A program made the position numbers and the translations under genes. A stretch of 64,000 nt of DNA from positions 1,423,001 to 1,487,000 of the forward strand of contig JACATO010002131.1 of the NCBI GenBank assembly GCA_018389105.1. Reading direction: 5' to 3'. The DNA is from Nautilus pompilius (taxonomy: Eukaryota; Mollusca; Cephalopoda; Nautilida; Nautilidae). The notes beneath the pieces were generated by a model. That model worked only from the letters and a program-made list of their open reading frames with translations, did not search any database and had not been told where the DNA came from. Every line of letters starts with the position of its first letter. Positions within the stretch are counted from its first letter, which is position 1. Below are positions 46 to 63,157 of this stretch, piece after piece.

Positions 46-268
46 CTGGTTTGAGAATGTGCCGGGTAATAGCTCAAGTCAATTTTTCAATTTGATTCCA
101 GGATCTGTAATAGGACAAATTACTGCTACAGATAATGATGGACCAAAAAATATTACATTTACTGTGCAAACAGGAAAAGAATTTGTGAACCTTACTGCGC
201 CTAGACATTCAAAGACCAACAATTGGACAGTGGACATAATACTAATTTCAAAATTAGATCGAGACTGG
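46..268 (+). CDS. CDH23: CDH23 exon 1 of window: first part of EC1
   Basis: Acceptor TTTTTAAAG ends at 45 and donor GTATGT starts at 269. The exon enters with one base of a split codon and leaves in phase 0. It encodes WFENVPGNSS, then GQITATDNDG and SKLDRDW, the DxD and DRE calcium motifs of one EC repeat. The order matches the atypical first repeat of CDH23, so at least one exon with the signal peptide should lie upstream. Confidence 0.88.
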
Positions 269-3200: not shown

Positions 3201-6200
3201 AAAAACACAGGAGTGAGATAATGCAGTTGCTGCATCTAGACCACAGCGTAACTACAGCTAAAGGTGTCAGTGAGGGTCTAAGTGTACACTAATGTGGATT
3301 ATCAGTCAAAAGATGAAATGTCACACAAAAATAGTTATAAAAGTGACCAACTTTGCAACTCTGTCCCTTCTTGTTGTGATCTATGTTTTTGGGAACTGCT
3401 CCCCCTTTTAGGTTTCAGTTCTCTTCATATCATCATGCAATTAAATATTTTAGATATTCTGTGCCTAAAATAAGAGACTCCTTCAATTTATTTATTGATG
3501 AAAGAGGAAATGAAGACTGGACTGGTGTGCAGGGCCAGTTCTAGAGTTGTCAGCACCCCAAGCAAACTGAATCTCAGCGCCTTTAAGGCCCTACCATTCC
3601 CTCATGCCTATTTGTGATAACATGACCAGAGGCTGATGTCCATGACACTTTCCTTGTCTTTCCACACAAAAGCAAGAATCACACACTCCCTAACATTTTG
3701 ACCGCCTGTCAGATAATTTTTGTATTTTGCCCCCCCCTTTTTTTTTACTTAAATTTTTTCTCTCCCTTTTTGGTTCCCCCCACCCCTCCAGCTTGTGGTG
3801 TCTTAGGCGACTGCCCAGTTAGCCAGGGGGGTCTTCGAACCGGCCCTGCTGATGTGCATGAGGTGAAAACACCAGCGTTTTTTTTTTTTTTTTAGTGAGA
3901 GCTGTTTATTCTTTAAGCTGTGATATCTTAACCTTTTGATTATGGGGAAAATGATGATGTAGGATCTTTTTTAAGGTAAAAGGTCAAACTACTCTTCAAA
4001 ACTGAACACCTTTGAGTGGTTGGGCAAGATTGATTATTGGCTCTTGTTGACATACTAGAGAAACACACTCTCTGAAAGGTCTTTCTATATTATAGTTTTT
4101 AAAAAAGTGTTTTTAAATTATTTTGTTTTTTCTTAATCCCATGCTAACATATTTTAGTCCAGATATTAAAGCTTATGTGTTTATAATGAATCTGTAGCTG
4201 CCTCACCCATTTTGTATTAATATCATGAATTGCTAAATACTAATTACTTTTCCAATATGTGTCAACGCCAGATCTAGTACACCCAGTACTTTAGTTGGTC
4301 TGGGTACATATATCTTTATTTGTCTGTTTTATGTTTGTCTGATTTTAATTAATTCACTGGATTTTACGGTGTTACTCTGATGTTTTTGCAGTCTTTTCTT
4401 GCAATAGTACGCTATATGCTGTGATTAAGGTGTGGAGTGGATAACCGATTAATTGGACTGACATGACTAAGCTGGAAATATTATATCAATGAAGATCAAT
4501 ACACGTGAAGAAGTAATGTGTTCTATCACAGTTTCATACCTACGATTAGGAAAAAAAATCATCCGAACCTACCTACAAAAAATACTAATACTGGAAATGA
4601 AAAAGGGGGTATTGGGATCACACACAAGAGATGCATTTTGGGAAAACAAGACAAAATTGCATTTGTTCGTAGTATGCTAGCCTGAGTTGAAATTATCTGG
4701 CATATTTAACCCAGAATATCATCCACGCCCCGTGCTGGGGCGGAGCTCTCTCTCTCTAACAGAATATTTCTTAGCATCGCACATTCTTGCATGCTGTAAC
4801 TGACCCAGTCTCTTGTTATAATCTACTGTGAATTCAACTGATTTGTCTACTTTATTATCTGTTAGACAGTCACTTAGTTACAGTATGGTACATAACTGTA
4901 TCAGAAAATAAATATTAAATTATTTTTTTAAAATTGCAATATTCGTCTTTTCAAAATTTTGTGATCATTAACATCCTTTTACCACTACAATGACAATACC
5001 TGAATATACCTTTGGTACTGTATCTATATATAATTTTATGTAAAGTGAGGTTTCTTGGTTAACAAATATAAAAATAAAAATTAGAGTTTAAGAGCATCTT
5101 TTCTATATAGAAGACTTCTGTGGTAGTTGGCTTAGCATAATACATAGCAGACAGGATGATGTTTGCTGTGGTGCTGCTGGTTTTAGTATCTTTTTGGACC
5201 AAATGGTTTGGTTCTTAGCCACTTGCAAAGCTTTTCAAGTACTCACCTTGGTTCCCTCTCTTCCTTTCTTTCACTGTTAATCAGAAAAGTTCTGGTAAAT
5301 TAACGTGACTCAGGTCAAAGTACATCCAACGGTTTTGCAGCAGTGACCGGTGTATTATGTTACCCCCAATCCACTTGTCCAGTGTTCTAAGGCAAAGGCA
5401 AAGTGATAGATAGCCCCGGACACATGACAGTATAGTCTGTTAGACAAACTCTACCACCAGTGAAGGGAGAATTGTTGGTGTAGATAGCTGGATGTGCATG
5501 GAACAAAACTTTATTTCGTTTTGAACTTGGTCACATTATAGAAATTTTTATTTTGAGTACGAACAGTGCGTGTGTGTACATGCACTGATATGGGAGCTCA
5601 GCAGTGGAATAATGTTAATTTGCATGTTCAGTAGCATGGGCATTTGCAGGACCTTTTCTAATCGGGGGAGCAAAATGACAAAAAAAAAAAAAAAAATGTC
5701 TGCAGAATAAATTGCAGAGATAGGGGGCACACACACACACACACTCTCTGCCAGTGCCTTATGTTTTATTTTCCTTTATTCCCGCTTTCCTCCCAGCCTT
5801 TAGCTGGGTGCCATCGATCGGACTTGCTATTTCTCTCCTGATTAACTGCGCACCATCGAGCACAGTAAATCTGGCAACAACAACAAAAAAAATGCCATCA
5901 TTGCCCTACCACCACCAACTTTCATGACGTGGTTAGTTTTGGTTTAGTTTGGTTGATACGTGTGCGCGTGTGAATGTAAAATTGTCTGCTGCTGTTATGT
6001 TCTCTAAAGGCAGACCAAAAAAAAAAAGAGTAAAGTTCTTTTTGTCTTTTTTTAGCAGAAGACGGAGCAGACTTTGGTCTTCAAGATAACAGACAGTGAA
6101 AATGAGGCAAATATGAATTACCTTTTTTTTTTTTTTTTTGTACTCCATACAGCACCAGAACCCCAGTCAACCAACATCCTCTCTCACCTCCACTCCACCC

Positions 6201-9200
6201 TTCTGGGAAGATCTGTCATTCTGTGATCTTAATGTCTGCGATCTGGACTAGAACAGGGGTTTTTCTGGTCAACATTTACTGTTTTCACATTGCTAGTTTT
6301 TTCATTATGCGGCCTGGACCCGCCTCAGAGACTGGGGGTCTATGGGGGGGGTCTGTGATTGCGTATGCGTGATATGTTTGCAGCGGTACATCTCAGAGCC
6401 AACGAGCTAGAAAAATACTGCACGTGTCGGAGTAGAGCATCTTTATGCCACCTCTGCTTCCTTCAGTTAACGTTCGGTGCTCGCTATCGTCTGCTTCCTT
6501 GGCGTACAAATTTCAACACATTAACCGGAACAAAAGGCTGACGAGGAACTCCATGTGTAAAACATCATGTTTTAAAACAAACCGATGTTTTTTTAAAAAA
6601 AAAAAAATAGCTAGTACTTATTCACACTGCATTCTGAAAATGCCAGCAGACATTTACATCTCAACTCTCTCATACTTCCTCCTTTAAAATCGTGAAGCGT
6701 GTATGAGAGTTAAAACTTCAAGAAACATGTATTTATGTCATAACAAACAATTAGAAAACAAGGTTTGTAAAAAATATATATATATAATAATGTAGCAAAT
6801 AATTTTATCATGAAATTTTAAGAATGATGTTTTTTTTTAAATTTTGGATGTCTAGCTTTAGCCGGAACTGCATGAGAAAAATTGGCTTTTATAAAAAAGG
6901 TTTTATGTCAATTTGAAAAACAGAAATTTCGTTTGTTTAAACAAGCAGTCATAAATGAACATTGAGTTGATGCTAATGATACATTTCTTTAACATTCCAT
7001 AAGTTATACACTTAAATCTAACTTTGTTCCATAAGAGCCTCTTTATGAACAATGTTTTTAGTTTTTCCTTTGGGTGAAAAGCAAAACAGATTTGTTTTGG
7101 CCAACTGTTGAGCATCCAACACAGTTGTCCATGGGGGAAGGCAGAGACTATCCAAATTCAGGCCAATGGACCCTGTCTTTGATCTTGAGGTACTTTCATT
7201 ATAATTTGAGGCTGGTAGGTCACCTATTTTGAATGAGTGCAGTGAACTAAGTGTAATCTATAAGGCTTTTGAGAAGCGTTCCTTGGTGGCCTCAAAACGG
7301 CCTTCAAGGCCAACATGCAGTAGTTTAAACCTCTCCCAGGTTCTGAAGTACCTACACCCAAAATTTGGGTTGGTTCAGCTGTGAAAGAATAACAAACAAA
7401 CAAACAATTGAAAATATGCATTTGATTTTAGGAAACTATACAGATATTTAAAATCTTTTTTATTTAGATTATAAAAACAGTTATATTGTACATACAAGAT
7501 GTGAATGACAATGCTCCAGAATTTCGGAAACTTCCTTACAAGGCCACTGTTTCAGAGGTAGGTAATGGAATTTTAAACTTTATATTCATATATATATATA
7601 TATATTCATGTATGCATTATTGTAAATAATTGAGGCAGATCTTATGGTCAGTTGTAGACATGTAAAAATGGAGCTAAAAATGTCAGAGAAGGGATTTCTT
7701 CAGCAGTGATTTTTGTTTTTTTCTTTCAGGAGACAGATCAGGAAGTTATCTCATCATTTCTTTCATAACAATCCCTGAGTAAAATATTGGTTTACTATTT
7801 CAGGATGCTGTAAAAAACACCTTAATAAAGAATGTGACAGCATCTGACCCAGACAATGGACCTGGTGGGACAGTAACCTATTCCATGAAGGTAAAGTTAA
7901 TTGTTTAATACATTCTTGCATTGCTAAGCAACACAATTATCATTACAGTCATCTGGAATCCATTAAAGGAAGATGTAATGCTTTCAGAAATATTTGTTAG
8001 GAAAACAGATAAAAAGGACTTTTCTTTAGAATAATTAACCCCAAAAGTCCAGAAACTGAGTTTGAATAGTTAACTGAAAAAGACAGGAGACTCCTATGAT
8101 TTATAGAAGGTACCTTAAGTGAAAGATGGTGTGATTATTTACTTAAATGATTAATGCTATCTCTACAGCAAAAATAATTCTACATATTTGTCCACTATTT
8201 TTAATATCAACCATTGCTGATAATTTAACTGATTTATGGTTATTTTTTGTTGATAATTGAGAAAGTTTTGGGTGGAAAATGGCTATACAGGCTTTCTGTG
8301 GCTGGACTCGTTTGGTAAGCCTCACATAGATTATTTTTTCCTCATTCTTCTGTATCAGTCCATCAGCATTTAGGCACTTTAGTTTTTTTTTTTCCCACTG
8401 TTAAACACAGGAGTTCTGGTAGGAGCTTTCCAATTCCTACTGAAGAGACAAGTAACAGGGCCCCTATAATGGACGGGAATGGCAGCACTTGTTAGTGGCA
8501 CTACATAATCTCCTCATGTATCTCTACAGCTGTAGATGATGCTCACGGGAGAAAAAGAAAGTTAACAGTTAGCGATGCAGATAATTTTTTTAGTATCCAT
8601 GTCATATTTCTCTGAATTAAACCAAGCCTTTTAATGCATGGCTTTCAAAATTCTGCAGATTCTATGCTGAAAAGTTGTTTTTGTGTGGTGAATGAATGAC
8701 AGATTTGGGTTGTTGAAAAATCAAAAATATCGTGTTGAAATTGTGCCATTTAATTTTTTAAGATTACCAGGTAATAGAGAAGTGAGCGCCCAGTTATAAA
8801 TTGTTTTTAAATTTTTTTTTATGCCCATCACATTCCTTGTCGTTTCTTTATACAGTATATAAGCTATCTTGCTGTGTATAAAAATAATTTGAAATCTGTT
8901 ATCAGTTATTAAATCAACATTTTATTGTTTGATCTTCTTTTTTTTTTTTTTAGGCTATAGCCCAGGTAAGTTAAGTATACCGCAGATGCTTGTCTGGTTT
9001 AGCTCACTTTTACTTGATTGTTTAGAAACAGCGGGATGTTGTTATTGTGTAATGAAGGCTTTGTTGATGTGCTTTGTTCTGATGCTTTAGTTAACTGGAT
9101 ATAATACAGGTAAACCGGTTGAGATCAAAATATAAGCCAAAAGGAAACTCGGGGAAACAACATAATCCCCCTCTCCACTGCTTAAGCTTATTATCTCATT

Positions 9201-39395: not shown

Positions 39396-39483
<88 letters not shown>

Positions 39484-50400: not shown

Positions 50401-53400
50401 TTTGAAACAAAACCGGTGAGTCAAGGGCTTTAATGACAGTGTACCATAAGGGAATTTTTCCCAGACGTCTTGATGCAACAAACAATTTATCAGTGAGAAA
50501 TAAATGTATTTATTACATCTATAATTTTCAGCTACAATTATGGTCACCACTGTAATGTCATCTTAGTTACATATAAATATATTCTTCAGGATACATTGGA
50601 AAACTAGACAAAATGGTAAAAAAAGTGTTTGGTACAACCATTTACTGTTGTGAAATTGAACAACATAGATAACTTTTTACTGTATACACAATTTATCATT
50701 ATCAACTTTGAAAATGTAAAGCATAAATTGCCATTCTACTTTGAAAAGAACCAATGTCTGATTTTAAATAACAAAAAAGAGAATCTTATTTGGACTCAGT
50801 CTGTTAATGGGATTTTGAGCCTGTACATGAGCTATGGCCAATAATAGTTAGACTACTAACTCTACCACTTATAGTTGTCTGTTCAGAGGCACAACTTTTA
50901 AGGCTTTCAGTTATTGCAAGATATTTGCAAAACGTTCCATTGTTTCTTTTACATTCAGACTATGACGTTTTGTTTACTTCTATTTGCTTATTTGTTTTTT
51001 TTAGCTCCTCTGGATACAGATTTGCGCAAGGGAGATGTTCCAGGAACAAATATACATTCGTATGAAAAGTATGTAACCTAATTTTTTTTTCCATCTGCAG
51101 TATAGAAATATTTAAATATTTATTTAAAAAATTAATGTTAATATGTCATTGCTGCCACATTAATCTCCTTTTGTGTTCTTGATGTTTATTTTCAGTGAAG
51201 CATACAAAACAGATTGGATCAAAGTGGGATTTCAAAGTAAAATTTCTAATGTTCATACTTTAAGAGAATTAACCAATTACCATCCCTTAGAGAAATCTAC
51301 TTAACTTTAAAAAACATCAACAAAGAACATGCAAACTTTGTTTCACACTGTCTCAGATTGTTCCTTGTCCTCGTTATTTTTTTCAAGATATTTTGTTTTT
51401 TAAACATGTCATAACTCCAAGTTCCCAGTTGAGAAAGACGATTACTTCAGCCGCAGCTCAACGAAAGTTGTTCTGTGATGGACCAAGACCCAAGTTGACA
51501 TGGCCCTAATGTTTAATGCACTAGCAGCTCTAGTGTTGAAAATTTTTAGGATAATTGTTCATGATCTCTTATTTGACAACTTTCCTTCAATTAGCAAAAT
51601 ACTCATAACCCTTTCAGTATCATACTACCAAAGTTACTCCCCATGATACCTGTTACTTGCTGAGAATAGTTACAAAATTTACCATTTTTTTGAAAACTTT
51701 GCAAGCTTCCTTAGCTGTTTGGAGCTTAATATCAAAAATAAAAAAAATCCTGTAGAATGCAGTGTGCATGAAAGGAAGCAGTACACAGAGACTTGATTCA
51801 AATAAAATAAAATAGGCCCTCTCTGACATTAAAATAGGCTGTTCTAGTCACATGATAAGTACACAATTACCGTAAGCTGTAAGATAAGTATGAGCCAAAG
51901 AAGCCCTCAGTCTGAAATCAGTTATGCTAGTGATAATATGCTGAAAATTCTGCTGTAAACTGTTATCACCATGACTGCCCAGTTCAGAAAAAAGCATACA
52001 AACATTGGTGAAACTGAGGTCGGGAAATCTACATCAGGGCCAGCTCAAGCAACTTGGGCAATTTTTTAAAAAAAGACAATACCTAAAAGCACCTGCTGCA
52101 AGTAATTGCAGACCTTCTCAGGACTAAACTCTGATTGATGATAGCATCAGAAGAAATGTGGGTTCATCAGTTAGTTATGTCACTACTAATAAGTTGATGG
52201 GAAATACTAAAAATATCCCAACTGTCAGTATAAAAATAAAATTTTGCACAGTTCAGATTAGTTTCTACAAATTGTATTAAGGGCATATGTTAAAAGATAC
52301 TGTTCATTTAGAGACATTGCATCATTTCTTGCATTGATACTTTCAGATCTATTAGTCATGTTACCATTGCCCTCTGTATCGTCATTGTTACTGTTCTGTT
52401 TGTAATTTCATGTGTGGATGTTAGGAGAAAAACTACAGCTTATCTCTTCAGCTTCCACGTGACAGGCTTTCTCTTTATTCTAACCAGCTCTTACAGCTGC
52501 TATTTACATAAAATCTAAATGGTCTTGTATTCCCTTACTGTGTATACTGTAACTATCCACTATAATGTATTATTCAGTGAAAAAAAATATATATATTCAT
52601 TAGGAGGAATTAGCTATAGATTCTATTGTTTTATCCTTTTATTATCATGTGTACAACTATAGATAATATAAACCTGTGTATAAGGACCAAACCAATCTCT
52701 TGGGTAGTCATTATAAATGGGTTTTCCTGTTATCCCTGGTAGTGCTCGTTATTTGTTATTATGCTCTCAATGCTACTTGTTAAGTCCCTTTGGAAATATT
52801 CCCTTCTTTTCACCCCAACCAGTTATAAAAACTCAGTATGCTATAAATTATCTCCTTAAAGTTCCATGTAGGACTCTGATTTCATTATGCCTGCTAAAAT
52901 CTGGAATACTCTGGATTCTTTTAAAGCCACTACTGGGAATTTAAAACTCAGCTGTTCAGATTTATCCACAAAGCAGAAACAAAAACCTGAAATACTTCCA
53001 CCCTTAACCACAAGCAAGACGAAAATCGATAAACCCAGAATGTTCCAGGTTCTGCACTACCAGGGTCTGAACATTTCCAATCATGATTACCAATTAAACA
53101 AATTCTCTTGACTGAATACTTTGTTTGCTCTGCTTTTGACAGACCAGTTAAGGAGGGCAACACACGGTTCTAGGGTAAAATTTTATGCTTGTTTTTCTTT
53201 TGTTGTGGTCTCCTTGCCCCACCGTGTATCTGTGTCCCGTTGTTGTAAACATGTTTGTAGCTAACGCTTACGCAATAGTAATGTTAGACGACACCATGCA
53301 ATGCAAGACCTACCCCACGAGAAACTCCTGCAAAGGAGGAGGATTCACTAGCTTACAGAAACTGAAAACCATTTTTGTTTTGTGTGTCTATTGATGTATG

Positions 53401-56400: not shown

Positions 56401-59400
56401 AGAGACTGGTGCACCTTGTTACTAAAAAAATCATTATTCCTTATTAGATGTTACCTCCTAAACACCTCCCCCTCCCAAAAAAATTTTAAAAATTACTGTG
56501 GTTTTTAAAGGCTTAATTAATCTTTTATACTTTGAACTTATCAATTACAACTTTTCAAATGTCTTTAGATACAGTACAGAACATTTTCTTACATCTCCCA
56601 TTAAACTGATTAATCAGTTTTGTGAAGTTATCAGCACCCTTCTACACTCTAGATGAACCTCTTTACACCCCTGCTTCCCCGTTACTCTTCCTCTGTCCCT
56701 CAAACAAGACAAAGTCTTTCTTGTGTATTTGGGTTTGCATAGTTATTGCAGGAAGCCACAAAGCCATCCTTCACAAGGCCACTGAAAGAAAATGGATTTG
56801 ATTTTAAACTTTATAAAATCATCACTATTGTTAGCTGTTTATTTCATTCATTCGTGCTAAAAATGTTGGTATTTTTTTCTAATATCAAGTCATGCTGATA
56901 CTTTAGCCACTTTATAGGTTATGACACCTCATATGTCTAAATGTAGATATTAAAAAATATCCTGTATTGATATTGGTTTTAAAATGTCTACCAGTCTTCT
57001 CTCAAATCACTGCTATGTAAGCTGGGTAAATTTAATTGACTATAATAAACAGTGTTTAATTTTACATGCCAGGGGCCAGCTTTCTATGAGTTGATACAGG
57101 GGCACTGTCATAGGGTGTTTTGTCCAATGTGTTTGTTTTTTGCAAGGTAAAAATTTTGCAAATTTTATCTTTTTGCAAAATTCTAAAAAATTGTTATGGT
57201 ATTTTATGTAAATCTATATTTTTTCAATTTTTCTTATATGTTAAATACATAAACCCTCAAGACATTTTGGATAATATTTGTTAGACTCTCTAATATTTTA
57301 GTATTTTCCCATAAACATAAGCTTCATGTCTGTAAACATAGTATACTTTATTTATGGAAATCTGATGTTGTGCTTGAGATTCATCTACACTTGAACAGTT
57401 GTATATTTGCTGACGTTTTGGTAAAGTATTCCAGTAGCCATCTTCAGCAAAGTTCTAATGATGTCTGCCTGTTTGCAAAGCTAATTAACTTAGGTTTCAT
57501 CTATCATCTTACATCAAATTAGTTATCTGAGAGATCCTGAGATATTTCTCTTTACCAGTAATTCTGAAGATGGTAACAGGCTGTTTTTCTGAAATGTCAA
57601 AAAAAAATCTCAATGAATACAATATCTTGCATTATTGGTTTTTTTTATCCTTCTGCATTGTTATAAATAGACACAGAATTCATCTTTAGTGCAACTTTGC
57701 CAGAAAGTTGGAGCAACACAGGGTGATGCAGTTTGGTAGATAGAAATATCACTACTTGACGATGGCACACTTTCAGATATGCAGTAACCTTTTATTTTAT
57801 ACTCTCCTCTTGTTTATTTCCAAATTTCTTCTCTTTTCTTTTCTTTAGCATATGCAAACAGTTTTATATTAGAGGAGCAGTGCATCTTATATAATTCTTT
57901 TTCATGACTAATTTACTCTAGTGCAAATCCGATTTACTTGGAGAAGATCATCATGGCCGATCTAGATGATGATGGGTAAGTAAAGGAGTAGATTGACTGT
58001 TAAATAATAAACTATCAAAGATAAATATAGTAATTAGTGCTGCTGCCATAGATACAATGTTACCCTATCATTTAGTTCAGTTTGATTTGACATCCAGACT
58101 AAGAAGAGCAGGATTTCCTACTTAGAGGAACCTCAAAGTCCATTAATGAACAAATCATGCAAAAACAAAATGCATTTCTTTCGCAATAACTCACTTGTAT
58201 CATTAATTTAAGTAAATCTAGAACTTTCCATACTTTTCTTTTTTAAAATACATATGCAGTGGTATATTACTGTTTTGTCAAGATCACAAACTTTGTGCAT
58301 CTTATAGTTGGGGAAAACATGGCTGCCACCATGACCCGGGAGCATCATGCTACATGTTATGCTAACCCACCATCCTATTATTTGACTATAAAACTATAAG
58401 TGTCACCTTTAAAAGAGAAACAATACTGAGGAACCATTGATCAAAAGAGAGTGGACTTTGAGCTAATGTATATAATCAATTTTTGTTAAGTTTCTGAAAC
58501 TGTATGAGAAATCTTGTCACATATTTATATTTTAAACTCTAGCGCTATTAAGTAAAATATTGTGATTTATACCTTTTATTTTGTAGCCACAAATCTTTAA
58601 AAAAAAGGGGGGGCAAACAAATTTAAATACTGTAGACGGATAAAGAAATGAAATGTAGTGAGATGTAATTTGGTTTACTGTTTAATTAATGGATCTATGC
58701 AGAAAAAGACTTTGTTGACAGTGCTGTGTGCTAAACAGAGAGGTATGGTTCCTAAATGCTCACCATTCTTGACTTGCAGAAAGTTTTAGATTCATTGCAT
58801 TCGTCCCATTAATTATAGGTTATCCGCTGTATGATGCATGAAGGTAAGATTTTTTTTAAAATATAGGCAGATTGCTTGTAGTATCTCTGGTGTTAATGGG
58901 TCTGTAGGATTGAGAGTCTGGTGTCCTTAGCACCAATGAAGTATGTTAGACTGCACATTTTCACACTGGATGTAGCCATCCTTTGGTTTTGTGGGCTTCA
59001 CTGAAACTTTCTCTATTCCACCTCTATTCTTTATTATTGCTAACTGACCTCTTTTTCTAACAAGGACTGATCTCTAACCCCTAACTCGCTAATTTTATTT
59101 TGCTCAATTTTGTTATTGAGGGACACAATGTATTTATAATATTTTGGCACACATCCAGAATCCTGCATTAACAATTATGAGAATTTTGGTTGTAAAAGTT
59201 CTTTTTCTTTGAAATAAATACCATGTTTTAGAGCAGTGGTTCTCAACCAGGAGCCATATGGCCCCCTATGGGGCCATGTCACATTGATGGGGGCCAGCTG
59301 AAAGAAATAGTATATTAGGGAGCCACACACATTTTAATGGGCCATACCAATTTAACTTCAGGGCGTTCAATTACTTTATCATAATCCTCACATTGCATTG

Positions 59401-62400: not shown

Positions 62401-63157
62401 AATTCCCCAGAATAATAGGCAGAATAATTACATTCAGGCATGGAGACTTTATTCAAGAAACAAAACTGAAATAGTAGAGAGTTTGAAAACTAATTGAGAA
62501 TATGGTGAATTATTTAAAATATTAATTTCAATTAGATTAGCTTAATAATTAAATGTCAGTAATTTATTTCACTTATTAGAACTTCTATTACTAACACTGT
62601 GAACTAGCATTGTACAGTTATTAGGTTTATCTCAAAGTAGTGCCAATGCAGTAGTGGTGTAGTTATTTCCACATAGTAGTTCTTGCAGAAAGCAATCACA
62701 AGAACCATAAGTATTTCTTTTTTAATTACATTTTATGCCATGGATTTATTAACCTATGGCTAGTTCATTTACAGCTGACAACCATATACATAATACCAGT
62801 GTGCTGTGTGATTTCTTAGTCTTTGTATCAGTCTACATTTTTTTAAAAAATTACTTCTGCTTTGCTTTCAGTCCTTATTCATTAGGTGAAGCTGACTCTA
62901 AACAAAACAATGGCTATGACGAACGCGAAATCTCTTTGGATTTATACGATGATGAAATGGACTACCTACCCATGTCTTCATCACTGAGTTCATCTGACTG
63001 CATACTGGCAGCTGCTTTGTATGAACATGATATTTCAAAGAAATCACAACTTAATGCAGTGTTACCAACTGTAAGTAAATCAGTATCGAACAGCTACAGC
63101 AGCAGAGATTCAACTCCTTCGTCACATCCCTATCACAGGAATGCAACGGACATATGA
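46..63157 (+). CDS. CDH23: Cadherin-23-like gene, 34 coding exons, 5' end outside window
   Basis: A calcium-dependent adhesion protein of the plasma membrane; in vertebrates CDH23 forms the upper part of hair-cell tip links and binds protocadherin-15 and harmonin. The joined exons total 5572 bases, one base of a split codon plus 1856 codons and TGA, and every junction keeps frame. Visible are 14 EC repeats with DxNDN linkers, DxD and LDRE/LDYE motifs, a SEA-like membrane-adjacent domain, one hydrophobic helix and a cytoplasmic tail ending T-D-I. The CDH23 assignment rests on recalled similarity: EC1 strand spacing, the DVQD linker after EC2, an LQ in place of LDRE in the fourth repeat from the membrane, NDQR.KV before the membrane-adjacent domain, NYNVLE at its end, and the tail motifs. 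The start codon and signal peptide are upstream. The main oddity is length, 14 EC instead of 27. Confidence 0.93.
540..812 (-). repeat. tRNA-derived SINE-like copy
   Basis: On the minus strand the element opens near 812 with a tRNA-like head. An A-box-like GATTCAGTAGCTTATAG is followed by a B-box-like AAGTTTGAATCCC (748-760). A central part contains AATGAAGAATTCTAGCAGGG, which recurs in other repeats of this window. The boundaries are approximate. It is a degenerate insertion, not a functional tRNA. Confidence 0.55.
3530..3848. mobile_element. Small non-autonomous hAT-type element
   Basis: The ends are inverted: CAGGGCCAGTTC at the left and GAACCGGCCCTG at the right. The flanks are a near-perfect 8-bp duplication, CTGGTGTG (3522-3529) against CTGATGTG (3849-3856). 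An 8-bp duplication with CAGGG termini is typical of hAT MITEs. The 319-bp interior has no coding capacity. A related end may occur at 9845. Confidence 0.7.
5742..5925 (+). repeat. Dispersed repeat, copy A
   Basis: This stretch shares an ordered series of short blocks with 24890-25060: GCCAGTGCCTT, a CTTTC block, CCTTTAGCTG, TTTCT, a GCACCA/GCACTA block, then GCAACAACAA or GCAAAAAAT and ACCACCAACTT. The shared order suggests two diverged copies of one repeat. I do not recognise the family. Confidence 0.4.
6059..6106 (+). CDS. CDH23: CDH23 exon 2: central strand of EC1, GC donor
   Basis: A 48-nt phase 0-0 exon encoding KTEQTLVFKITDSENE. Without it EC1 lacks the strand and loop between LDRDW and the DVNDN linker. 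With it the spacing from LDR to DVNDN equals that of human CDH23 EC1 as I recall it. The acceptor is a tandem TAGCAG, so use of the first AG would add one Gln. No in-frame GT donor fits; the donor must be GAG|GCAAAT at 6107, a GC-AG intron. Confidence 0.7.
6107..7467 (+). other. CDH23: Intron 2 (1.4 kb, GC-AG)
   Basis: The intron starts GCAAAT and ends TTTATTTAG. It holds a poly-T run near 6123-6139 and a short TA tract near 6775-6786. No gene or recognisable mobile element was seen. Confidence 0.6.
7468..7557 (+). CDS. CDH23: CDH23 exon 3: EC1/EC2 linker
   Basis: The exon lies between TTTATTTAG and GTAGGT, phase 0-0, 30 codons. It encodes VILYIQDVNDNAPEF, the canonical DxNDNAP calcium linker closing EC1, then the first strand of EC2 ending in TVSE. 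Confidence 0.92.
7804..7890 (+). CDS. CDH23: CDH23 exon 4: first half of EC2
   Basis: Acceptor TATTTCAG, donor GTAAAG, phase 0-0, 29 codons. It contains ASDPDNGPGGTVTYSMK, the DxD-type EC motif followed by the Y-S strand. A 246-bp intron separates it from exon 3. Confidence 0.92.
7891..8953 (+). other. CDH23: Intron 4 (1.1 kb)
   Basis: AT-rich sequence. It has a weak match near 8410-8432 to the SINE-like motif GTTCTAGTAGGGACTTT and a long T run before the next acceptor. Nothing else was recognised. Confidence 0.6.
8954..8965 (+). CDS. CDH23: CDH23 exon 5: 12-nt microexon
   Basis: A T-rich tract and TTTTAG precede GCTATAGCCCAG, followed by a perfect CAG|GTAAGT donor. The four codons (A-I-A-Q) are in phase 0 and join YSMK of exon 4 to APTPEYSTKF of exon 6. 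The insert falls in a surface loop of EC2. Skipping also keeps frame, so it may be constitutive or alternative. The call rests on splice-site strength and frame only. Confidence 0.6.
9845..9996. mobile_element. Possible 152-bp hAT-like MITE
   Basis: The ends CAGGGCCTGGCTCA and TTGGCCAGCCCTG are imperfect inverted repeats and resemble those of the element at 3530-3848. The flanking 8-mers TGCTCCAT and GACACCAT share 5 of 8 bases, a weak duplication. There is no coding content. Confidence 0.4.
11488..11986. mobile_element. Tigger/pogo-type MITE
   Basis: The left end CAGGTTGAGAATCCCTTAT reappears inverted at the right as ATAAGGGATTCTTGACCTT. TA dinucleotides flank both ends (11486-11487 and 11987-11988), as expected for Tc1/mariner/pogo transposition. 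The interior repeats TCAGATTTTGGA-type words near both ends and has no coding capacity. Confidence 0.7.
12333..12458 (+). CDS. CDH23: CDH23 exon 6: second half of EC2
   Basis: Acceptor TTTCTTGCAG, donor GTAAGC, phase 0-0, 42 codons. It encodes FRIDTVSNIGEIRL, then ALDYETHTFYQFEITAT, with LDYE in place of LDRE. Human CDH23 EC2 also has LDYE as I recall it. Confidence 0.93.
12459..14593 (+). other. CDH23: Intron 6 (2.1 kb)
   Basis: AT-rich, with a CT microsatellite at about 13690-13710 and T runs near 13163-13180. No gene or mobile element was recognised. Confidence 0.6.
14594..14713 (+). CDS. CDH23: CDH23 exon 7: EC2/EC3 linker
   Basis: Acceptor TTTAAATTTAG, donor GTATGT, phase 0-0, 40 codons. 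It begins with DGG and encodes FVVTVLDVQDTPPRF. The linker DVQDxxP replaces DxNDNAP. Human CDH23 has the same DVQD variant at its EC2-EC3 junction as I recall it, which supports the assignment. It ends with YSIQILENVSV, strand A of EC3. Confidence 0.92.
14714..15877 (+). other. CDH23: Intron 7 (1.2 kb)
   Basis: AT-rich sequence with a short ACAG-type tract near 15232-15256. Nothing else was recognised. Confidence 0.6.
15878..15956 (+). CDS. CDH23: CDH23 exon 8: first part of EC3
   Basis: Acceptor AATTTCAG, donor GTAAAT, entering in phase 0 and leaving in phase 1. It encodes GTKVLQVTAIDGDRG then SLTYKFVDG, with the DxD motif of EC3. Its last base joins GA of exon 9 to give Gly. Confidence 0.92.
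16245..16363 (+). CDS. CDH23: CDH23 exon 9: middle of EC3
   Basis: Acceptor TTTTGCAG, donor GTAAGG, entering in phase 1 and leaving in phase 0. It encodes KFENFLINRTSGWITV, then NTLDRD and GGVYAMTVM. The residues between LDRD and the next strand are longer than usual, as in human CDH23 EC3. Confidence 0.92.
16364..17485 (+). other. CDH23: Intron 9 (1.1 kb)
   Basis: It holds a minus-strand SINE-like copy (about 16555-16800) and a short CT tract near 16996-17008. The rest is AT-rich with nothing recognised. Confidence 0.6.
16555..16800 (-). repeat. tRNA-derived SINE-like copy
   Basis: The minus strand opens near 16800 with TGGTCCAGTGGTTAACTC (A-box-like), then GAGTTCAATTTGAG (B-box-like). Farther on it carries GGTTCTAATATGGACTTTT, a variant of the GTTCTAGTAGGGACTTT word shared by several repeats here. 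Boundaries are approximate. Confidence 0.5.
17486..17689 (+). CDS. CDH23: CDH23 exon 10: EC3/EC4 linker
   Basis: Acceptor TTACATAG, donor GTTTGT, phase 0-0, 68 codons. It encodes VKITVLDINDNGPQF, then SYTASIMENLHKG and NVTDRDQ. There is a slightly extended segment between the glycine and the DxD motif of EC4. Confidence 0.92.
17690..19626 (+). other. CDH23: Intron 10 (1.9 kb)
   Basis: Most of the intron is a decayed plus-strand Tc1-like transposon (about 17930-19250). T-rich sequence leads into the acceptor TTGTTTGTAG. No host exon was found. Confidence 0.6.
17930..19250 (+). mobile_element. Decayed Tc1-like transposon
   Basis: Plus-strand translation, interrupted by stops and frameshifts, gives fragments in Tc1 transposase order: a GVMVWG-like block near 18550, then TQYISIFLEGFLPL (about 18635-18680), YMEDSAPAY (about 18710-18735; cf. 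QQDNAPCH) and RPITGHKPDQGYH (about 18794-18832; cf. WPxxSPDLNPIE). Terminal repeats were not resolved, so the ends are approximate. No intact transposase remains. Confidence 0.5.
19627..19788 (+). CDS. CDH23: CDH23 exon 11: EC4
   Basis: Acceptor TTGTTTGTAG, donor GTTGGT, phase 0-0, 54 codons. It begins GRNSHFVLTVEKNNNF and later gives LDYETTKFITFQ. The LDYE motif and the long segment before it match human CDH23 EC4 as I recall it. Confidence 0.9.
19789..20379 (+). other. CDH23: Intron 11 (0.6 kb)
   Basis: AT-rich with T and A runs near 20105-20120. No repeat or gene was recognised. Confidence 0.6.
20380..20544 (+). CDS. CDH23: CDH23 exon 12: EC4/EC5 linker
   Basis: Acceptor TTTTGTAAG, donor GTAAGT, phase 0-0, 55 codons. 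It encodes ATVSLTIEDMNDNAPVF, then ETYLETVREDAI and STIA. This is the canonical calcium linker closing EC4 and strand A of EC5. Confidence 0.93.
20545..21128 (+). other. CDH23: Intron 12 (0.6 kb)
   Basis: AT-rich intron sequence. Nothing was recognised in it. Confidence 0.6.
21129..21193 (+). CDS. CDH23: CDH23 exon 13: first part of EC5
   Basis: Acceptor TTTCTTGTAG, donor GTAAGT, entering in phase 0 and leaving in phase 2. It encodes ATDADTGSYGEITYLLKGDNS, a textbook DxD-G-Y cadherin motif. Confidence 0.93.
21194..22047 (+). other. CDH23: Intron 13 (0.9 kb)
   Basis: AT-rich with homopolymer A and T runs. Nothing was recognised. Confidence 0.6.
22048..22285 (+). CDS. CDH23: CDH23 exon 14: rest of EC5 and start of EC6
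   Basis: Acceptor CCAAACAG, entering in phase 2 and leaving in phase 0. It encodes FSVSPKTGVISV, LDRELRDAYYMTLEAKDGG, then INIEDVNDNAPIF. The donor GAG|GTGTGC is weak, but joining here gives LAVE|AMDNDKPG, the expected LxVxAxDND motif of EC6. Confidence 0.9.
22286..23679 (+). other. CDH23: Intron 14 (1.4 kb)
   Basis: AT-rich with a TA microsatellite at about 23153-23169. Nothing else was recognised. Confidence 0.6.
23680..23925 (+). CDS. CDH23: CDH23 exon 15: EC6, GC donor
   Basis: Acceptor TTTATTTAG, phase 0-0, 82 codons. It encodes AMDNDKPGTNNSQVKYKI, FSINEDTGEITL and SALDYEKL, then TNLTVTVE. The donor is GAG|GCAAGT (23926), a consensus GC-AG donor. The nearby GT at 23930 would put a stop codon across the junction with exon 16. 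Confidence 0.9.
24260..24530 (+). repeat. tRNA-derived SINE-like copy
   Basis: The head has TCCAATGGTAGAATGCTAG (A-box-like) and CAGGTTGGAATCTTGACTGG (B-box-like). The middle reads TTTTCTCTGAGCTCTCCATT, then GGTTCTAGTAGGGACTTTGT. This is the clearest forward copy of the family seen at 540, 16555, 40130 and 56225. The central part recalls the Meta-domain of MetaSINEs, a comparison from memory that is untested. Confidence 0.6.
24890..25060 (+). repeat. Dispersed repeat, copy B
   Basis: This is the partner of 5742-5925. The blocks GCAGTGCCTT, CTCTTTC, CCTTTTGCTG, TTTCTTGCCCAATTCAT, GCACTAGTGAG, GCAAAAAAT and ACCACCAACTT occur in the same order. The family is unknown to me. Confidence 0.4.
26336..26408 (+). 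CDS. CDH23: CDH23 exon 16: EC6/EC7 linker
   Basis: Acceptor ATCCTAG, donor CAG|GTAAGA, entering in phase 0 and leaving in phase 1. It encodes DENDNAPTFLRPLYKANVSE and ATP, the linker closing EC6 and strand A of EC7. Confidence 0.93.
26409..28166 (+). other. CDH23: Intron 16 (1.8 kb)
   Basis: It includes a fragment near 27185-27240 with GAAGAGTTCTAGTAATGGCTT, similar to the SINE-like family. No exon was found, so no extra EC repeat is hidden here. The rest is AT-rich. Confidence 0.6.
28167..28624 (+). CDS. CDH23: CDH23 exon 17: EC7 and start of EC8
   Basis: Acceptor ACTTTAG, donor AGG|GTAAGC, entering in phase 1 and leaving in phase 0. At 458 nt it is one of the two longest exons. It encodes VKAVDADTTSPNNEIIYRI, FRIDAITGIISI, GATLDRENKDSYILNLSAI and ITDENDENPYF, then QSVSVKENQM and TAKDDDENSGLKYSVM. 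EC7 has the extra residues before LDRE seen in human EC20. EC8 opens like human EC21. Confidence 0.93.
28625..29165 (+). other. CDH23: Intron 17 (0.5 kb)
   Basis: AT-rich intron sequence. Nothing was recognised. Confidence 0.6.
29166..29301 (+). CDS. CDH23: CDH23 exon 18: middle of EC8
   Basis: Acceptor TTATTTTAG, donor GTGAGT, entering in phase 0 and leaving in phase 1. It encodes NYFDVYPDNGTVYINTSLDRE, then LPILVTDTNSRKAVQTAT. Before LDRE lies the longer insertion also seen in human CDH23 EC21. Confidence 0.92.
29302..30160 (+). other. CDH23: Intron 18 (0.9 kb)
   Basis: AT-rich with a TC microsatellite at about 29979-29994. Nothing else was recognised. Confidence 0.6.
30161..30376 (+). 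CDS. CDH23: CDH23 exon 19: EC8/EC9 linker
   Basis: Acceptor AATTTCAG, donor GTGAGC, entering and leaving in phase 1. It encodes SLRITILDVNDNSPDF, YYLNVSEDLPLDAEVFRVV, ANDKDKNQAVSFRI and YFKIEPSGQQ. This closes EC8 and gives the DxD region of EC9. Confidence 0.93.
30377..32008 (+). other. CDH23: Intron 19 (1.6 kb)
   Basis: AT-rich sequence with A and T runs. I recognised no mobile element or exon. Confidence 0.6.
32009..32322 (+). CDS. CDH23: CDH23 exon 20: EC9 end and EC10 start
   Basis: Acceptor TTTTGCAG, donor GTAAGT, entering in phase 1 and leaving in phase 0. It encodes AVRLDKKLDREKVEFLQFTI, HIKVVDSNDNKPEF, NSTYWISEDAAVG and NATDKDTGIFGKIFFSLE. It joins the linker DSNDNKP to EC10. Confidence 0.93.
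32545..33066 (+). CDS. CDH23: CDH23 exon 21: EC10 end, EC11, EC12 start
   Basis: Acceptor TTCCTCAG, donor GTAAGA, phase 0-0, 174 codons, the longest exon. It encodes LDRETKASYPLVIIVKDN, LLDVNDNAPAF, SAQDPDDGDNGKIEFTL and FAIDPTTGDIQL, then SLQENIGVYYLTVIAMDKG. Here LDRE is replaced by LQEN, and the closing linker is DVNLHNPKF, not DxNDNAP. Human EC24 also lacks LDRE, having LQSYE as I recall it. Confidence 0.94.
33396..33690 (+). repeat. Degenerate tandem repeat, about four units
   Basis: The motif TTTAACAAGGgaGTAATCAtGT recurs at about 33396, 33469, 33573 and 33655. Two units also share the preceding text CTTYTATTA...GCCATTTGTATGTAA or GCCATTGTGTAAC. Unit length varies from about 70 to 105 bp. 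Confidence 0.6.
33743..34600. mobile_element. Candidate Tigger/pogo-like relic
   Basis: The left edge reads TACAGTAATACCATGATATA and continues into GTGCATTCCTGGAGC, the style of Tigger-type termini. I could not find the matching right repeat, and no transposase motif is clear. Family and right boundary are guesses. Confidence 0.3.
34949..35137 (+). CDS. CDH23: CDH23 exon 22: EC12
   Basis: Acceptor TTCCTAG, donor GTATGT, phase 0-0, 63 codons. It encodes MQVSATDDDHGLNGQVKYEL, then DWKKFHLDKDTGRLI and AILDREKQKTYV. The DW..F and GLNG pattern matches human EC25 as I recall it. Confidence 0.93.
35138..37481 (+). other. CDH23: Intron 22 (2.3 kb)
   Basis: About half of it is a decayed minus-strand Tc1-like transposon (about 35500-36640). 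The remainder is AT-rich with nothing recognised. Confidence 0.6.
35500..36640 (-). mobile_element. Decayed Tc1-like transposon
   Basis: Minus-strand translation gives ENIQHLSWPAHYPDINHHKM (about 35858-35917), a decayed copy of the Tc1 catalytic block DNIxxLxWPAxSPDLNPIE; the final Glu is lost. Downstream, ALGTIP (about 35809-35826) and a TVRDTG segment fit the Tc1 C-terminus. Many stops and shifts remove any activity. TIRs were not found and the ends are approximate. Confidence 0.6.
37482..37713 (+). CDS. CDH23: CDH23 exon 23: EC12 end and EC13 start
   Basis: Acceptor CTTCCCAG, donor AAG|GTCAGG, entering in phase 0 and leaving in phase 1. It encodes LQVEAYDLGKET, HLTIELLDMNDNPPLF, VLSVEEEQDSAYVG and EDSDSGNNSQICYYIK. 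The donor is weak, but the frame into exon 24 (GGEKSNHFSL) is right. Confidence 0.92.
37714..39067 (+). other. CDH23: Intron 23 (1.4 kb)
   Basis: AT-rich, with a short GT/GA-rich tract near 38008-38036. Nothing else was recognised. Confidence 0.6.
39068..39387 (+). CDS. CDH23: CDH23 exon 24: EC13 with a furin-type site
   Basis: Acceptor CTTGATAG, donor AAG|GTAAGG, entering in phase 1 and leaving in phase 0. It encodes HFSLSKTSGKLYL, KKLDREEVPNVNLVIQASEH and VQLKDINDNPPVF. Between them lies a long polar loop holding RKKR (39211-39222), a proprotein-convertase-type sequence. The A.D motif expected after the LDRE strand is replaced by ASEHCY, so one calcium ligand seems absent. Human EC26 has a loop of similar place and length. 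Confidence 0.92.
39399..39496 (+). repeat. (CT)n(CA)n compound microsatellite
   Basis: About 14 CT units run into about 35 CA units with one interruption (ACCACA near 39480). It sits 11 bp downstream of the donor of exon 24. Confidence 0.95.
40130..40320 (-). repeat. tRNA-derived SINE-like copy
   Basis: On the minus strand the B-box-like AAGTTTGATTCCTGCTGG (about 40263-40282) is followed by TGTGGGTTTTCTCCCACATC and then AAAAATGAAGAGTTCTAGTT. The central text matches the copies at 24260 and 54975. The A box is degraded. Confidence 0.55.
40431..40670 (+). CDS. CDH23: CDH23 exon 25: EC14 (membrane-proximal)
   Basis: Acceptor TTTTATAG, donor GTATGC, phase 0-0, 80 codons. It encodes YDIEDKDIGNNSIPYFRL, then FQTNMEGHFLLPLVVADVGG and NSTAVFT. 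It keeps DxD but lacks LDRE, as does human EC27, the last CDH23 repeat, as I recall it. Confidence 0.92.
40671..42027 (+). other. CDH23: Intron 25 (1.4 kb)
   Basis: It contains a poly-A run at about 41777-41794. I recognised no gene or mobile element. Confidence 0.55.
42028..42116 (+). CDS. CDH23: CDH23 exon 26: start of membrane-adjacent domain
   Basis: Acceptor TCTCTTCAG, donor GTAAGT, entering in phase 0 and leaving in phase 2. It encodes IHLISNDQRIKVIFRL, then AFAVRGLKDPFT. DDQR.KI at the same place is a hallmark of human CDH23 as I recall it. This begins the SEA-like membrane-adjacent domain. Confidence 0.92.
42117..44138 (+). other. CDH23: Intron 26 (2.0 kb)
   Basis: It holds a decayed Tigger-type transposon (42521-43343). 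The rest is AT-rich with nothing recognised. Confidence 0.65.
42521..43343 (-). mobile_element. Decayed Tigger (pogo) DNA transposon
   Basis: The termini CAGGTGCTCCCCGACTTACA and, inverted, CAGATACTCCCCGACTTATG flank the element, with TA on both sides (42519-42520, 43344-43345). The minus strand carries a broken transposase N-terminus: RKSLDLEVKMKVI near 43080, NAIARDLQLSYSTISTILKD near 43000, and CENP-B-like SLLTIQTKARSIF and FQASNGWFNRLQ near 42702-42830. There are frameshifts and the catalytic region is missing. At 823 bp it is an internally deleted copy. Confidence 0.85.
44139..44225 (+). CDS. CDH23: CDH23 exon 27: membrane-adjacent domain
   Basis: Acceptor TTTTTAAG, donor GTAGGT, entering and leaving in phase 2. 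It encodes QLQNSTGYKIIVDKIQTHEN and ALGKPEVD, the strand and turn after NxTG typical of the CDH23/PCDH15 membrane-adjacent domain. Confidence 0.9.
44226..45127 (+). other. CDH23: Intron 27 (0.9 kb)
   Basis: It begins with the donor, then a 174-bp pyrimidine tract and a TA microsatellite (44250-44440). The rest is very AT-rich. Confidence 0.65.
44250..44440 (+). repeat. Long polypyrimidine tract followed by (TA)n
   Basis: Nearly pure C/T from 44250 to 44423 with only about four purines, in blocks of CT, CCCCCT and CCCT, then a run of TA. It starts 24 bp after the donor of exon 27. Confidence 0.95.
45128..45196 (+). CDS. CDH23: CDH23 exon 28: membrane-adjacent domain
   Basis: Acceptor TATCTTTCAG, donor AAG|GTAATG, entering and leaving in phase 2. 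It encodes TDMLIHGIDLKTNEVVDAKV and LL. The T.LLIHV...TN.I.D pattern is that of the CDH23 membrane-adjacent domain. Confidence 0.92.
45197..45827 (+). other. CDH23: Intron 28 (0.6 kb)
   Basis: AT-rich. It has an open stretch of about 100 codons at 45313-45621 that resembles nothing I know and has no splice context fitting the gene. Confidence 0.5.
45828..45894 (+). CDS. CDH23: CDH23 exon 29: end of membrane-adjacent domain
   Basis: Acceptor TTTTAAAG, donor GTGAGT, entering in phase 2 and leaving in phase 0. It encodes AVDFNTANLVSILNNYNVLE then IV. NYNVL at this place is shared with human CDH23. Confidence 0.92.
45895..46864 (+). other. CDH23: Intron 29 (1.0 kb)
   Basis: It begins with the donor, then a CA/GA microsatellite (45906-45970). 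The rest is AT-rich with nothing recognised. Confidence 0.6.
45906..45970 (+). repeat. (CA)n(GA)n compound microsatellite
   Basis: A CA run passes into GA/CAGA repeats, starting 12 bp after the donor of exon 29. Confidence 0.9.
46865..46992 (+). CDS. CDH23: CDH23 exon 30: transmembrane segment
   Basis: Acceptor TTCTTTCAG, donor GTGAGT, entering in phase 0 and leaving in phase 2. After PYTSPPDNSTTERDLK comes an uninterrupted hydrophobic helix of 23 residues (46913-46981), followed by SRQK. The basic stop-transfer residues put the C-terminus in the cytoplasm. Confidence 0.95.
46993..47540 (+). other. CDH23: Intron 30 (0.5 kb)
   Basis: T-rich toward the acceptor TTTTTTACAG. Nothing was recognised. 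Confidence 0.6.
47541..47584 (+). CDS. CDH23: CDH23 exon 31: juxtamembrane cytoplasmic segment
   Basis: Acceptor TTTTTTACAG, donor GTAAGT, entering in phase 2 and leaving in phase 1. It encodes YIRKLKAATGKSYH, a basic stretch; human CDH23 has HKRKLKAI at the same place as I recall it. Confidence 0.92.
48095..48945 (-). mobile_element. pogo-like DNA transposon fragment
   Basis: The minus strand from about 48654 reads MPAIKKRKADTAAF, then KLEVVNFAENNGNMAAERQY and GVSEKCVCDWQK. This is the N-terminal Brinker/CENP-B-type DNA-binding helix-turn-helix of pogo-family transposases. Sequence around it repeats ATAAGT(T/C)(G/A) words on both sides, and the right end reads AAAAATACGGTA. No catalytic domain is present. 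Ends are approximate. Confidence 0.6.
49493..49507 (+). CDS. CDH23: Candidate 15-nt cassette microexon
   Basis: A strong pyrimidine tract and TTTTTTTGCAG precede ACATTCATAAAATAG, followed by GTAAAA. In the phase set by exon 31 it reads Y-I-H-K-I plus one base and enters exon 32 in frame. It would add five residues to the cytoplasmic tail just inside the membrane. Exons 31 and 32 also join correctly without it. Confidence 0.35.
   Translation, partial: TFIK
51005..51068 (+). CDS. CDH23: CDH23 exon 32: cytoplasmic tail
   Basis: Acceptor TTTTTTTAG, donor GTATGT, entering in phase 1 and leaving in phase 2. It encodes PLDTDLRKGDVPGTNIHSYE plus a split AA. P.TN.(H/Y)S is shared with human CDH23. 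The split codon becomes Asn with either of two downstream acceptors. Confidence 0.92.
51196..51304 (+). CDS. CDH23: Possible alternative last exon of CDH23
   Basis: Acceptor TTATTTTCAG, then T completes Asn, then EAYKTDWIKVGFQ, continuing open for 22 more codons to TAA (51302-51304). AATAAA signals follow at 51737, 51801 and 51806. Used after exon 32 it gives a protein of about 1779 residues in this window, without the harmonin-binding motifs. The only other route, a weak donor CAAA|GTAAAA at 51237, leaves phase 1 and cannot join exon 33. Confidence 0.5.
54975..55085 (+). repeat. SINE-like fragment
   Basis: It carries ACCAGCCAGCCTTGTGGGTT and TTCTCCCACATCTAGAAATA, matching the central text of the copy at 40130-40320. 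The head and tail are not clear. Confidence 0.45.
56225..56345 (+). repeat. SINE-like fragment
   Basis: It contains GGTTCCTCTGGGCACCCCAG, then TCTAAAAATAAAGAATTCTA and GTAGGGATTTC, the shared central word of the SINE-like family. It lacks a recognisable tRNA-like head. Confidence 0.5.
57411..57600. repeat. Imperfect inverted repeat
   Basis: TGACGTTTTGGTAAAGTATT with CCAGTAGCCATCTTCAG (57411-57447) is approximately the reverse complement of CTGAAGATGGTAACAGGCTG with TTTTTCTGAAATGTCA (57563-57599). The spacer is about 115 bp. The words CTGAAGATGGC and AAACGTCA recall the ends of Penelope-like or LINE relics, from memory. Confidence 0.45.
57922..57975 (+). CDS. CDH23: CDH23 exon 33: cytoplasmic tail
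   Basis: Acceptor TTTACTCTAG, donor GG|GTAAGT, entering and leaving in phase 2. It encodes ANPIYLEKIIMADLDDD. Joined to exon 32 it gives TNIHSYENANPIYLEK, which aligns with TNKYSFDGANPVWLD of human CDH23 as I recall it. Without splicing, the donor itself would read as a TAA stop. Confidence 0.9.
59234..59943 (+). mobile_element. hAT transposon relic with perfect TSD
   Basis: The termini are CAGTGGTTCTCAACC and GGTTGAGAACCACTG, perfect inverted repeats. An identical 8-bp duplication TTTTAGAG flanks both sides (59226-59233 and 59944-59951). A transposase C-terminal fragment lies at 59482-59592: HPLLEHSAVIDLRLSLTTLE, then PDIKKLADLHQPQGSH and a stop. This resembles hAT/ZBED-type proteins. At 710 bp it is a deletion derivative. 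Confidence 0.92.
60093..61244 (+). mobile_element. Decayed mariner-like transposon
   Basis: The ends AGTTCTGTCCAAAA and TTTTGGACAGAACT are perfect inverted repeats, with TA at 60091-60092 and 61245-61246. Plus-strand fragments include GFIKTSMKHRPRFG (about 60310-60350) near the expected DNA-binding end and FSPDLNPLDFIVW near 60920-60960, the usual SPDLNPxD catalytic block. Stops and frameshifts interrupt it throughout. Confidence 0.85.
61413..61437 (+). repeat. (TTA)n microsatellite
   Basis: About seven TTA units within intron 33. Confidence 0.85.
62872..63157 (+). CDS. CDH23: CDH23 last exon: harmonin-binding tail
   Basis: Acceptor TTGCTTTCAG; the first base completes Gly. It encodes PYSLGEADSK, an acidic stretch (SLDLYDDEMDYLP), a serine-rich stretch, CILAAALYEHDISKKSQL (62998-63051) and a Ser/Thr-rich end closing in N-A-T-D-I and TGA at 63155-63157. 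The helix aligns with the internal harmonin N-domain-binding peptide of CDH23 (YLRAAIQEYDNIAKLGQ, from memory). T-D-I is a class I PDZ ligand like T-E-L of vertebrate CDH23. Confidence 0.93.

Follow-up and report, generated by a model that had tools for sequence, protein, structure and literature searches.

The window analysed here, a stretch of 64,000 nucleotides, contains a plus-strand gene that fills nearly all of it (33 exons from 46 to 63157, with phase kept throughout). With a probability that we put at roughly three in four, this gene encodes a CDH23-type (Cr-2) cadherin whose 14 EC repeats correspond to vertebrate EC1-6 followed directly by EC20-27, with a CDH23 MAD, one transmembrane helix and a tail resembling that of CDH23 behind them. 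Four observed features underlie this reading: the gene structure, the order of the repeats, the MAD, and tail motifs that resemble those of CDH23. CDH23, a long adhesive thread that contributes to hearing by hair cells, makes up the upper portion of the tip link by which the hearing channel is opened; to our knowledge the reason for its 27 repeats is not settled. We read the encoded protein as a shortened CDH23-type cadherin, probably of the tip-link or intermicrovillar type. Among the open-licence papers searched, no description of a 14-repeat CDH23 or of an EC1-6 plus EC20-27 form was found.

Gene structure and repeat count

The gene model was built from stop-free stretches, inspected splice sites and a search for small exons in the gaps, followed by joining (Table 1). 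The joined exons form a coding sequence of 5,548 bases without a stop or phase break, which encodes 1,848 residues and ends in a TGA (63155-63157). 30 of the 32 introns are GT-AG, and the remaining two, after exons 2 and 14, are GC-AG; the GC donors at 6107 and 23926 thus place two GC-AG introns within one gene. The least certain exons are exon 2 (51 bases), which is the weakest of those carrying EC sequence, having been picked for its phase and its fit to human EC1 and missed by the EC profile, and exon 30, which is firm only at its start and has its donor at either 47569 or 47584. We also looked for a micro-exon in the intron that follows exon 9 and rejected it, the direct splice (DRDQ to GRNS) being already complete. 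The model enters in phase 2 inside EC1, and the signal peptide and first EC1 strand therefore lie upstream of the window.

Cutting the spliced protein at its linkers yields 14 EC repeats and then a stretch beginning NDQR, so that the encoded order is 14 EC repeats, CDH23-like MAD, transmembrane helix and short tail. The continuous exon phases and EC linkers and the count of 14 repeats put forward in the first-pass annotation are borne out by these 33 in-phase exons. Its statement that both ends of CDH23 are kept holds for the MAD, helix and tail; the first EC1 strand and the signal peptide fall outside the model.

Unused EC exons were sought by running, over 3,579 six-frame pieces, a profile that combines the 27 human repeats with the 14 of the gene itself, whose exons therefore match it by construction. 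All matches with E<1 lay inside modelled exons, and no unused EC exon was found among these pieces of the window; the best match outside the model (minus strand, 47856-47921) reached 5.8 bits at E = 3.3, in keeping with the earlier claim that no repeats are hidden between introns 14 and 18. Exons 1-24 hold all EC sequence except the last strand of EC14, and the profile recovered 21 of these 24 at E<1, with exon 3 at E 7.9, exon 6 at E 1.5 and exon 2 unseen. Lone small exons could escape such a profile; thirteen extra repeats hardly could. With 14 repeats and no unused EC exon found, the gene does not count as a canonical 27-repeat CDH23.

The window is free of any N and has a GC content of 34.6%. 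Between 269 and 63157 the observed/expected CpG ratio is 0.25 in introns and 0.42 in coding exons. Such CpG depletion is unusual for a mosaic-methylated invertebrate genome; by the general rule, the base composition and the intron value of 0.25 suggest a strongly methylated genome, though they point to no particular phylum. Two transposase-type fragments lie on the minus strand in introns, one with a Tc5-type DNA-binding domain (42701-42970; PF03221, E 1.3e-10) and one with a Brinker-type domain (48490-48816; PF09607, E 3.6e-7). Runs of TC and CA dinucleotides (39399-39496) begin 12 bases past the end of exon 23.

Table 1. Features of the modelled gene, in positions of the window
Feature	Position	Strand	Basis and remarks
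Exon 1, most of EC1, ends LDRDW	46..268	+	Joined model; acceptor ttttaaag, donor gtatgt; enters phase 2
Exon 2, EC1 strand QKTEQTLVFKITDSENE	6056..6106	+	Gap search, joined model; GC donor gcaaat
Exon 3, EC1 end, DVNDNAPEF linker, EC2 start	7468..7557	+	Splice sites, joined model
Exon 4, EC2	7804..7890	+	Gap search, joined model
Exon 5, EC2 with LDYE	12333..12458	+	Splice sites, joined model
Exon 6, EC2 end, DVQD linker (human DMQD), EC3 start	14594..14713	+	Splice sites, joined model
Exon 7, EC3	15878..15956	+	Joined model
Exon 8, EC3 with LDRD	16245..16363	+	Joined model
Exon 9, EC3 end, DINDN linker, EC4 start	17486..17689	+	Joined model; weak donor gtttgt
Exon 10, long EC4 with LDYE, direct join to exon 9	19627..19788	+	Joined model; weak donor gttggt
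Exon 11, EC4 end, EC5 start	20380..20544	+	Joined model
Exon 12, EC5, 65 bases	21129..21193	+	Gap search, joined model
Exon 13, EC5 end, EC6 start	22048..22285	+	Joined model
Exon 14, EC6	23680..23925	+	Joined model; GC donor gcaagt
Exon 15, EC6/EC7 linker DENDNAPTF and first EC7 strand	26336..26408	+	Joined model, repeat placement
Exon 16, EC7 (matches human EC20), EC8 start	28167..28624	+	Joined model, repeat scores
Exon 17, EC8 (human EC21)	29166..29301	+	Joined model
Exon 18, EC8 end, EC9 (human EC22 by order only)	30161..30376	+	Joined model, repeat scores
Exon 19, EC9 end, EC10 (human EC23)	32009..32322	+	Joined model
Exon 20, EC10 end, whole EC11 (human EC24 by order), linker DVNLHN, EC12 start	32545..33066	+	Splice sites, joined model
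Exon 21, EC12 (human EC25)	34949..35137	+	Joined model
Exon 22, EC12 end, EC13 (human EC26)	37482..37713	+	Joined model
Exon 23, EC13 and EC14 start, RKKR at 39211-39222	39068..39387	+	Splice sites, joined model
Exon 24, EC14 (human EC27, without LDRE)	40431..40670	+	Joined model
Exon 25, EC14 end, MAD start NDQRIKV	42028..42116	+	Gap search, splice sites, joined model
Exon 26, MAD	44139..44225	+	Splice sites, joined model
Exon 27, MAD	45128..45196	+	Splice sites, joined model
Exon 28, MAD end, NNYNVLEIV	45828..45894	+	Splice sites, joined model
Exon 29, transmembrane helix	46865..46992	+	Splice sites, joined model
Exon 30, juxtamembrane YIRKLKAAT, alternative donor 47584	47541..47569	+	Gap search, joined model
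Exon 31, tail motif DVPGTN	51005..51068	+	Splice sites, joined model, tail alignment
Exon 32, tail motif ANPIYLEK	57922..57975	+	Splice sites, joined model, tail alignment
Exon 33, tail end, LAAALYEHDI, C-terminus RNATDI, TGA at 63155	62872..63157	+	Joined model
AATAAA, polyadenylation signal candidate, ~730 bases past stop	63891..63896	+	

Placement on the repeats of human CDH23

PDB cadherin-23 chains confirm 86% of the 3,038 residues of the human CDH23 reference used here without a register shift (1-320, 534-969, 1178-1605 and 1607-3038); residues 321-533 and 970-1177, EC4-5, EC10-11, the helix and the tail lie outside this confirmation. With row- and column-centred scores and jumps free anywhere, the best order-preserving path runs through human EC1-6 and then EC20-27, at a score of 882 against a mean of 391 and a maximum of 654 in 1,000 shuffles. 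Placement with a single jump gave the same winner, with the break after repeat 6, breaks after repeats 5 and 7 scoring 833 and 822. Repeat lengths correlate strongly between window and human (r = 0.94, EC1 left out); this length fit tied for first among 1,106 one-jump placements, and none of 20,000 random ordered subsets fitted as well.

For 11 of the 14 window repeats the collinear human partner is the best of all 27, the exceptions being EC1, where it ranks 3, EC9, where it ranks 4 and the best single match is human EC10, and EC11, where it also ranks 4. In the reverse direction, the collinear window repeat is best for 10 of the 14 matched human repeats (not for EC1, 22, 23 and 24). The order-preserving placement supports two earlier assignments, of EC1-6 to human EC1-6 and of EC8-14 to human EC21-27. 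The human repeats without a counterpart are EC7-19, which are thirteen, as the annotation had roughly estimated, and EC7, which it had left unassigned, falls on human EC20.

EC7 scores 199 against human EC20 and 146 against the next best, human EC12. The best CDH23 chain for EC1-8, PDB 5tfk (154.5 bits), aligns window residues 636-893 with chain residues 93-342. This single stretch sets the last part of EC6, EC7 and EC8 against the last part of human EC19, EC20 and EC21, which agrees with the pairing of EC7 with EC20. Human EC7 is a slightly better fit (+21) for the opening 13 residues of EC7, and human EC20 for the remainder; a stretch of 13 residues is too short for an exact join position within EC7 to be claimed. 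Exon 15 is the site at which the 13 human repeats have no counterpart. Several oddities are common to both proteins: the linker after EC2 (DVQD here, DMQD in human), LQ instead of LDRE in EC11 and human EC24, and the lack of LDRE in EC14 and human EC27, both of which are the final ECs.

Matched repeats are 35% identical (526 of 1,492), compared with a mean of 30% for other pairs, and single repeats are for this reason weak evidence. A repeat tree of 41 rows and 105 columns, holding only window and human CDH23 repeats and with a bootstrap that had not settled, gave little resolution. It pairs seven repeats collinearly (EC1, 2, 6, 8, 12, 13 and 14; starred only for 2, 13 and 14), flagging the EC1 and EC8 pairs as joining long branches and supporting the EC6 pair at 91/1. 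Four take contrary places (EC5 with human EC11 at 96/68, EC9 with human EC10 at 90/87, EC10 with human EC18 at 86/33, and EC4 beside the EC6 pair at 89/6), and EC3, 7 and 11 are left unplaced. This is the tree that the first-pass annotation had proposed as a check.

Membrane-proximal region and family identity

The comparison with FAT and dachsous used PDB scores, the domain content and the MAD only. By summed PDB score, eight Celsr1/protocadherin chains rank above the best CDH23 chain for EC1-8, five chains of other cadherins rank above CDH23 for EC1-3 and one (Celsr1) does so for EC8 to the end. EC similarity alone does not mark the gene as CDH23.

The membrane-proximal region is more specific. 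PDB 8tri, which covers the four last domains of CDH23, aligns with EC12 through the MAD as a single stretch covering 458 query residues (222 bits, E 1.1e-64). The MAD alone matches CDH23 (8tri) at E 4e-13, its sole significant match among chains that do not include the PCDH24 MAD; the best PCDH15 chain comes next at E 0.059, and the MAD12 of PCDH15 (Cr-3) is thus not recognised. A Pfam search of two pieces without EC9 found no EGF, laminin-G, seven-pass or catenin-binding domain at E 0.001, its matches being cadherin repeat models (some named FAT4 or CELSR2), RET_CLD1, RibLong and Fibulin_C. On this domain content, EC9 left out, the gene does not have the make-up of a FAT, dachsous, CELSR or classical cadherin. 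Collinear repeats followed after the last EC by a CDH23-type MAD are the features of CDH23 (Cr-2). A further one, the elongated N-terminal strand with calcium site 0, would belong to the first EC1 strand, upstream of base 46.

The alignment runs on through the helix into what we take to be the human tail, with RKLKA, D.P.TN and ANP..L common to both. By eye, the ATDI end and LAAALYEHDI of the window tail resemble ITEL and LRAAIQEYDNI, presumably their human equivalents. The protein is like vertebrate CDH23 in the order of EC1-6 plus EC20-27, in repeat lengths, MAD and single helix, and perhaps in a PDZ-binding-like end. It differs in having 14 rather than 27 repeats, a degenerate EC11/EC12 linker, RKKR in EC13, a shorter tail and an identity of only ~35%, a level that argues against a vertebrate CDH23. 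Pattern searches of viral contigs and of genome contigs without animal genomes returned matches and no relative.

Drosophila Cad87A, with about 14 cadherin repeats, may be the same short form; if it agrees repeat by repeat, the short form is already on record and the novelty of the present gene falls. In the accessible parts of the papers concerned, CDH23 is stated to be deuterostome-specific on the basis of a 2023 survey that took in fly and oyster (PMC10734073), a planarian cdh23 homolog is named (PMC12626421), several CDH23 transcripts appear in a Hydractinia preprint (PMC11014542), and the fly candidates for CDH23 have DIOPT scores of 3 for ds and 2 each for cad87a, cadN and cad88c (PMC10898740). 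The Nematostella homolog is, in the available text, named CDH23-like and located in hair bundles, but it is predicted to have 44 repeats and three membrane helices (PMC3899209). A natural short CDH23 is described in the available part of a mouse study: Cdh23 isoform b (Cdh23_v2) has seven ECs and is without the 20 ECs encoded by exons 2-46 (PMC2743805). Like the window gene, this isoform keeps the membrane-proximal repeats, and the membrane-proximal half is thus a separate unit in vertebrates too. But the isoform comes from an alternative promoter and has no N-terminal tip, whereas the present gene retains EC1-6 and owes its short length to the genomic exons themselves.

History of the middle repeats and proposed function

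The first-pass annotation had left two histories side by side, a short ancestor later expanded or a loss of the middle, and the tests run here pull both ways. We lean slightly toward loss of the 13 middle repeats in the host lineage, as a preference and not as a result. A serious contender, to which we nevertheless give rather less than an even chance, is that the 14-repeat form is ancestral, kept here and perhaps in fly Cad87A, and that the vertebrate lineage later gained the other 13, placed between EC6 and EC20. As this concerns history, it is compatible with the CDH23-type identity of the protein. The middle human repeats score a mean of 133 against their best window repeat, which lies close to the value for orthologs (mean 141) and exceeds the 115 of flanking repeats without the ortholog, as expected of copies made after the split. 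They are also more alike among themselves than all 13 flanking repeats (100 versus 83, EC1 left out), but when EC4, 21, 26 and 27, the oddest and picked post hoc, are dropped, the flanking value becomes 114 versus 100. Consensus-like middle repeats would account for both the high mean of 133 and the greater mutual likeness. Copies made after the split should further resemble the flanking repeats of human more than those of the window. But the human-over-window excess is 11.6 for the middle repeats against 11.2 for the flanking ones (169 and 156 comparisons; 4,496 of 10,000 permutations as high), and the middle thus shows no sign of being young. In a coarser test, 11 of 13 middle and 9 of 13 flanking repeats score lower than the ortholog pair, which says little.

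An 8-repeat periodicity in human CDH23 speaks weakly for expansion, as 40 of 5,000 shuffles equalled it at that offset and 429 of 5,000 over offsets 1-13. Offset 8 is the highest, yet with this latter count a duplication of an 8-repeat block is not claimed. Expansion is also favoured by fly Cad87A, a weak CDH23 candidate (DIOPT 2) with 14 repeats, and by a report, as far as its accessible text goes, that the ends of CDH23 are more conserved than the middle (PMC8691648). The 44 repeats given for the anemone homolog in the available text (PMC3899209) argue against a short ancestor, provided that the anemone gene is a true ortholog.

It is unlikely, in our judgement, that the gene predates the separation of CDH23 from PCDH24 (CDHR2), as an invertebrate Cr-2 cadherin co-orthologous to both. 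PCDH24, itself Cr-2, does have a CDH23-like tip and a membrane-adjacent domain like the window gene, but the accessible description gives it 9 repeats (PMC8691648), followed by MAD10, and the window gene has 14. Moreover, the EC1-3 chain of PCDH24 reaches 118.7 bits, below the 143.4 of a CDH23 EC1-3 chain, and eight repeats match CDH23 EC20-27 in order. That the middle repeats are present in the animal and were dropped by a wrong assembly join is very improbable, as the window has no N, the flanking introns (2,410 and 1,758 long) are ordinary, phases run through, and EC repeats, judging from the human ones, are probably too different to collapse.

Returning to loss, a fuller version of it is that a CDH23 clade outside vertebrates, possibly in protostomes, where the 2023 survey reports none, lost exactly the 13 middle repeats and kept the half that binds PCDH15, the half next to the membrane, the MAD and the tail that binds the scaffold, giving a half-length tip-link-like filament; we hold this version only tentatively. 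Going by CDH23 biology, the protein would form a filament, stiffened by calcium, that connects microvilli or stereocilia-like projections. Its EC1-2 tip may pair with a PCDH15-type cadherin, its membrane-proximal part and MAD may set the geometry at the membrane, and its tail (ATDI end, LAAALYEHDI) may attach to a harmonin-type PDZ scaffold that myosin VII links to actin. An EC repeat is about 4.5 nm long, and the predicted filament would measure ~63 nm versus ~120 nm for 27 repeats, so that any link made with this protein would be shorter. At the EC11/EC12 joint (32899-33015), LQEN replaces LDRE and the linker reads DVNLHN, both calcium motifs being degenerate; human EC24 has the LQ in common with EC11 but not the degenerate linker. 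Judging from these residues, the joint probably binds calcium poorly and could bend. The furin-type cleavage motif RKKR (39211-39222) lies in an inserted loop of EC13 and is presumably lacking in human EC26. Ectodomain cleavage near the membrane is possible at this motif.

A natural form that joins the two functional halves of CDH23 without the middle would allow the binding and anchoring parts to be told apart from the spacer. If the host is a protostome, the gene bears on the published deuterostome origin of CDH23, as stated in the accessible text (PMC10734073). The 14-repeat form also predicts a link length that can be tested and is relevant to the evolution of length in threads of this kind, and if the middle repeats were indeed lost, the CDH23 middle would be a removable spacer that sets length.
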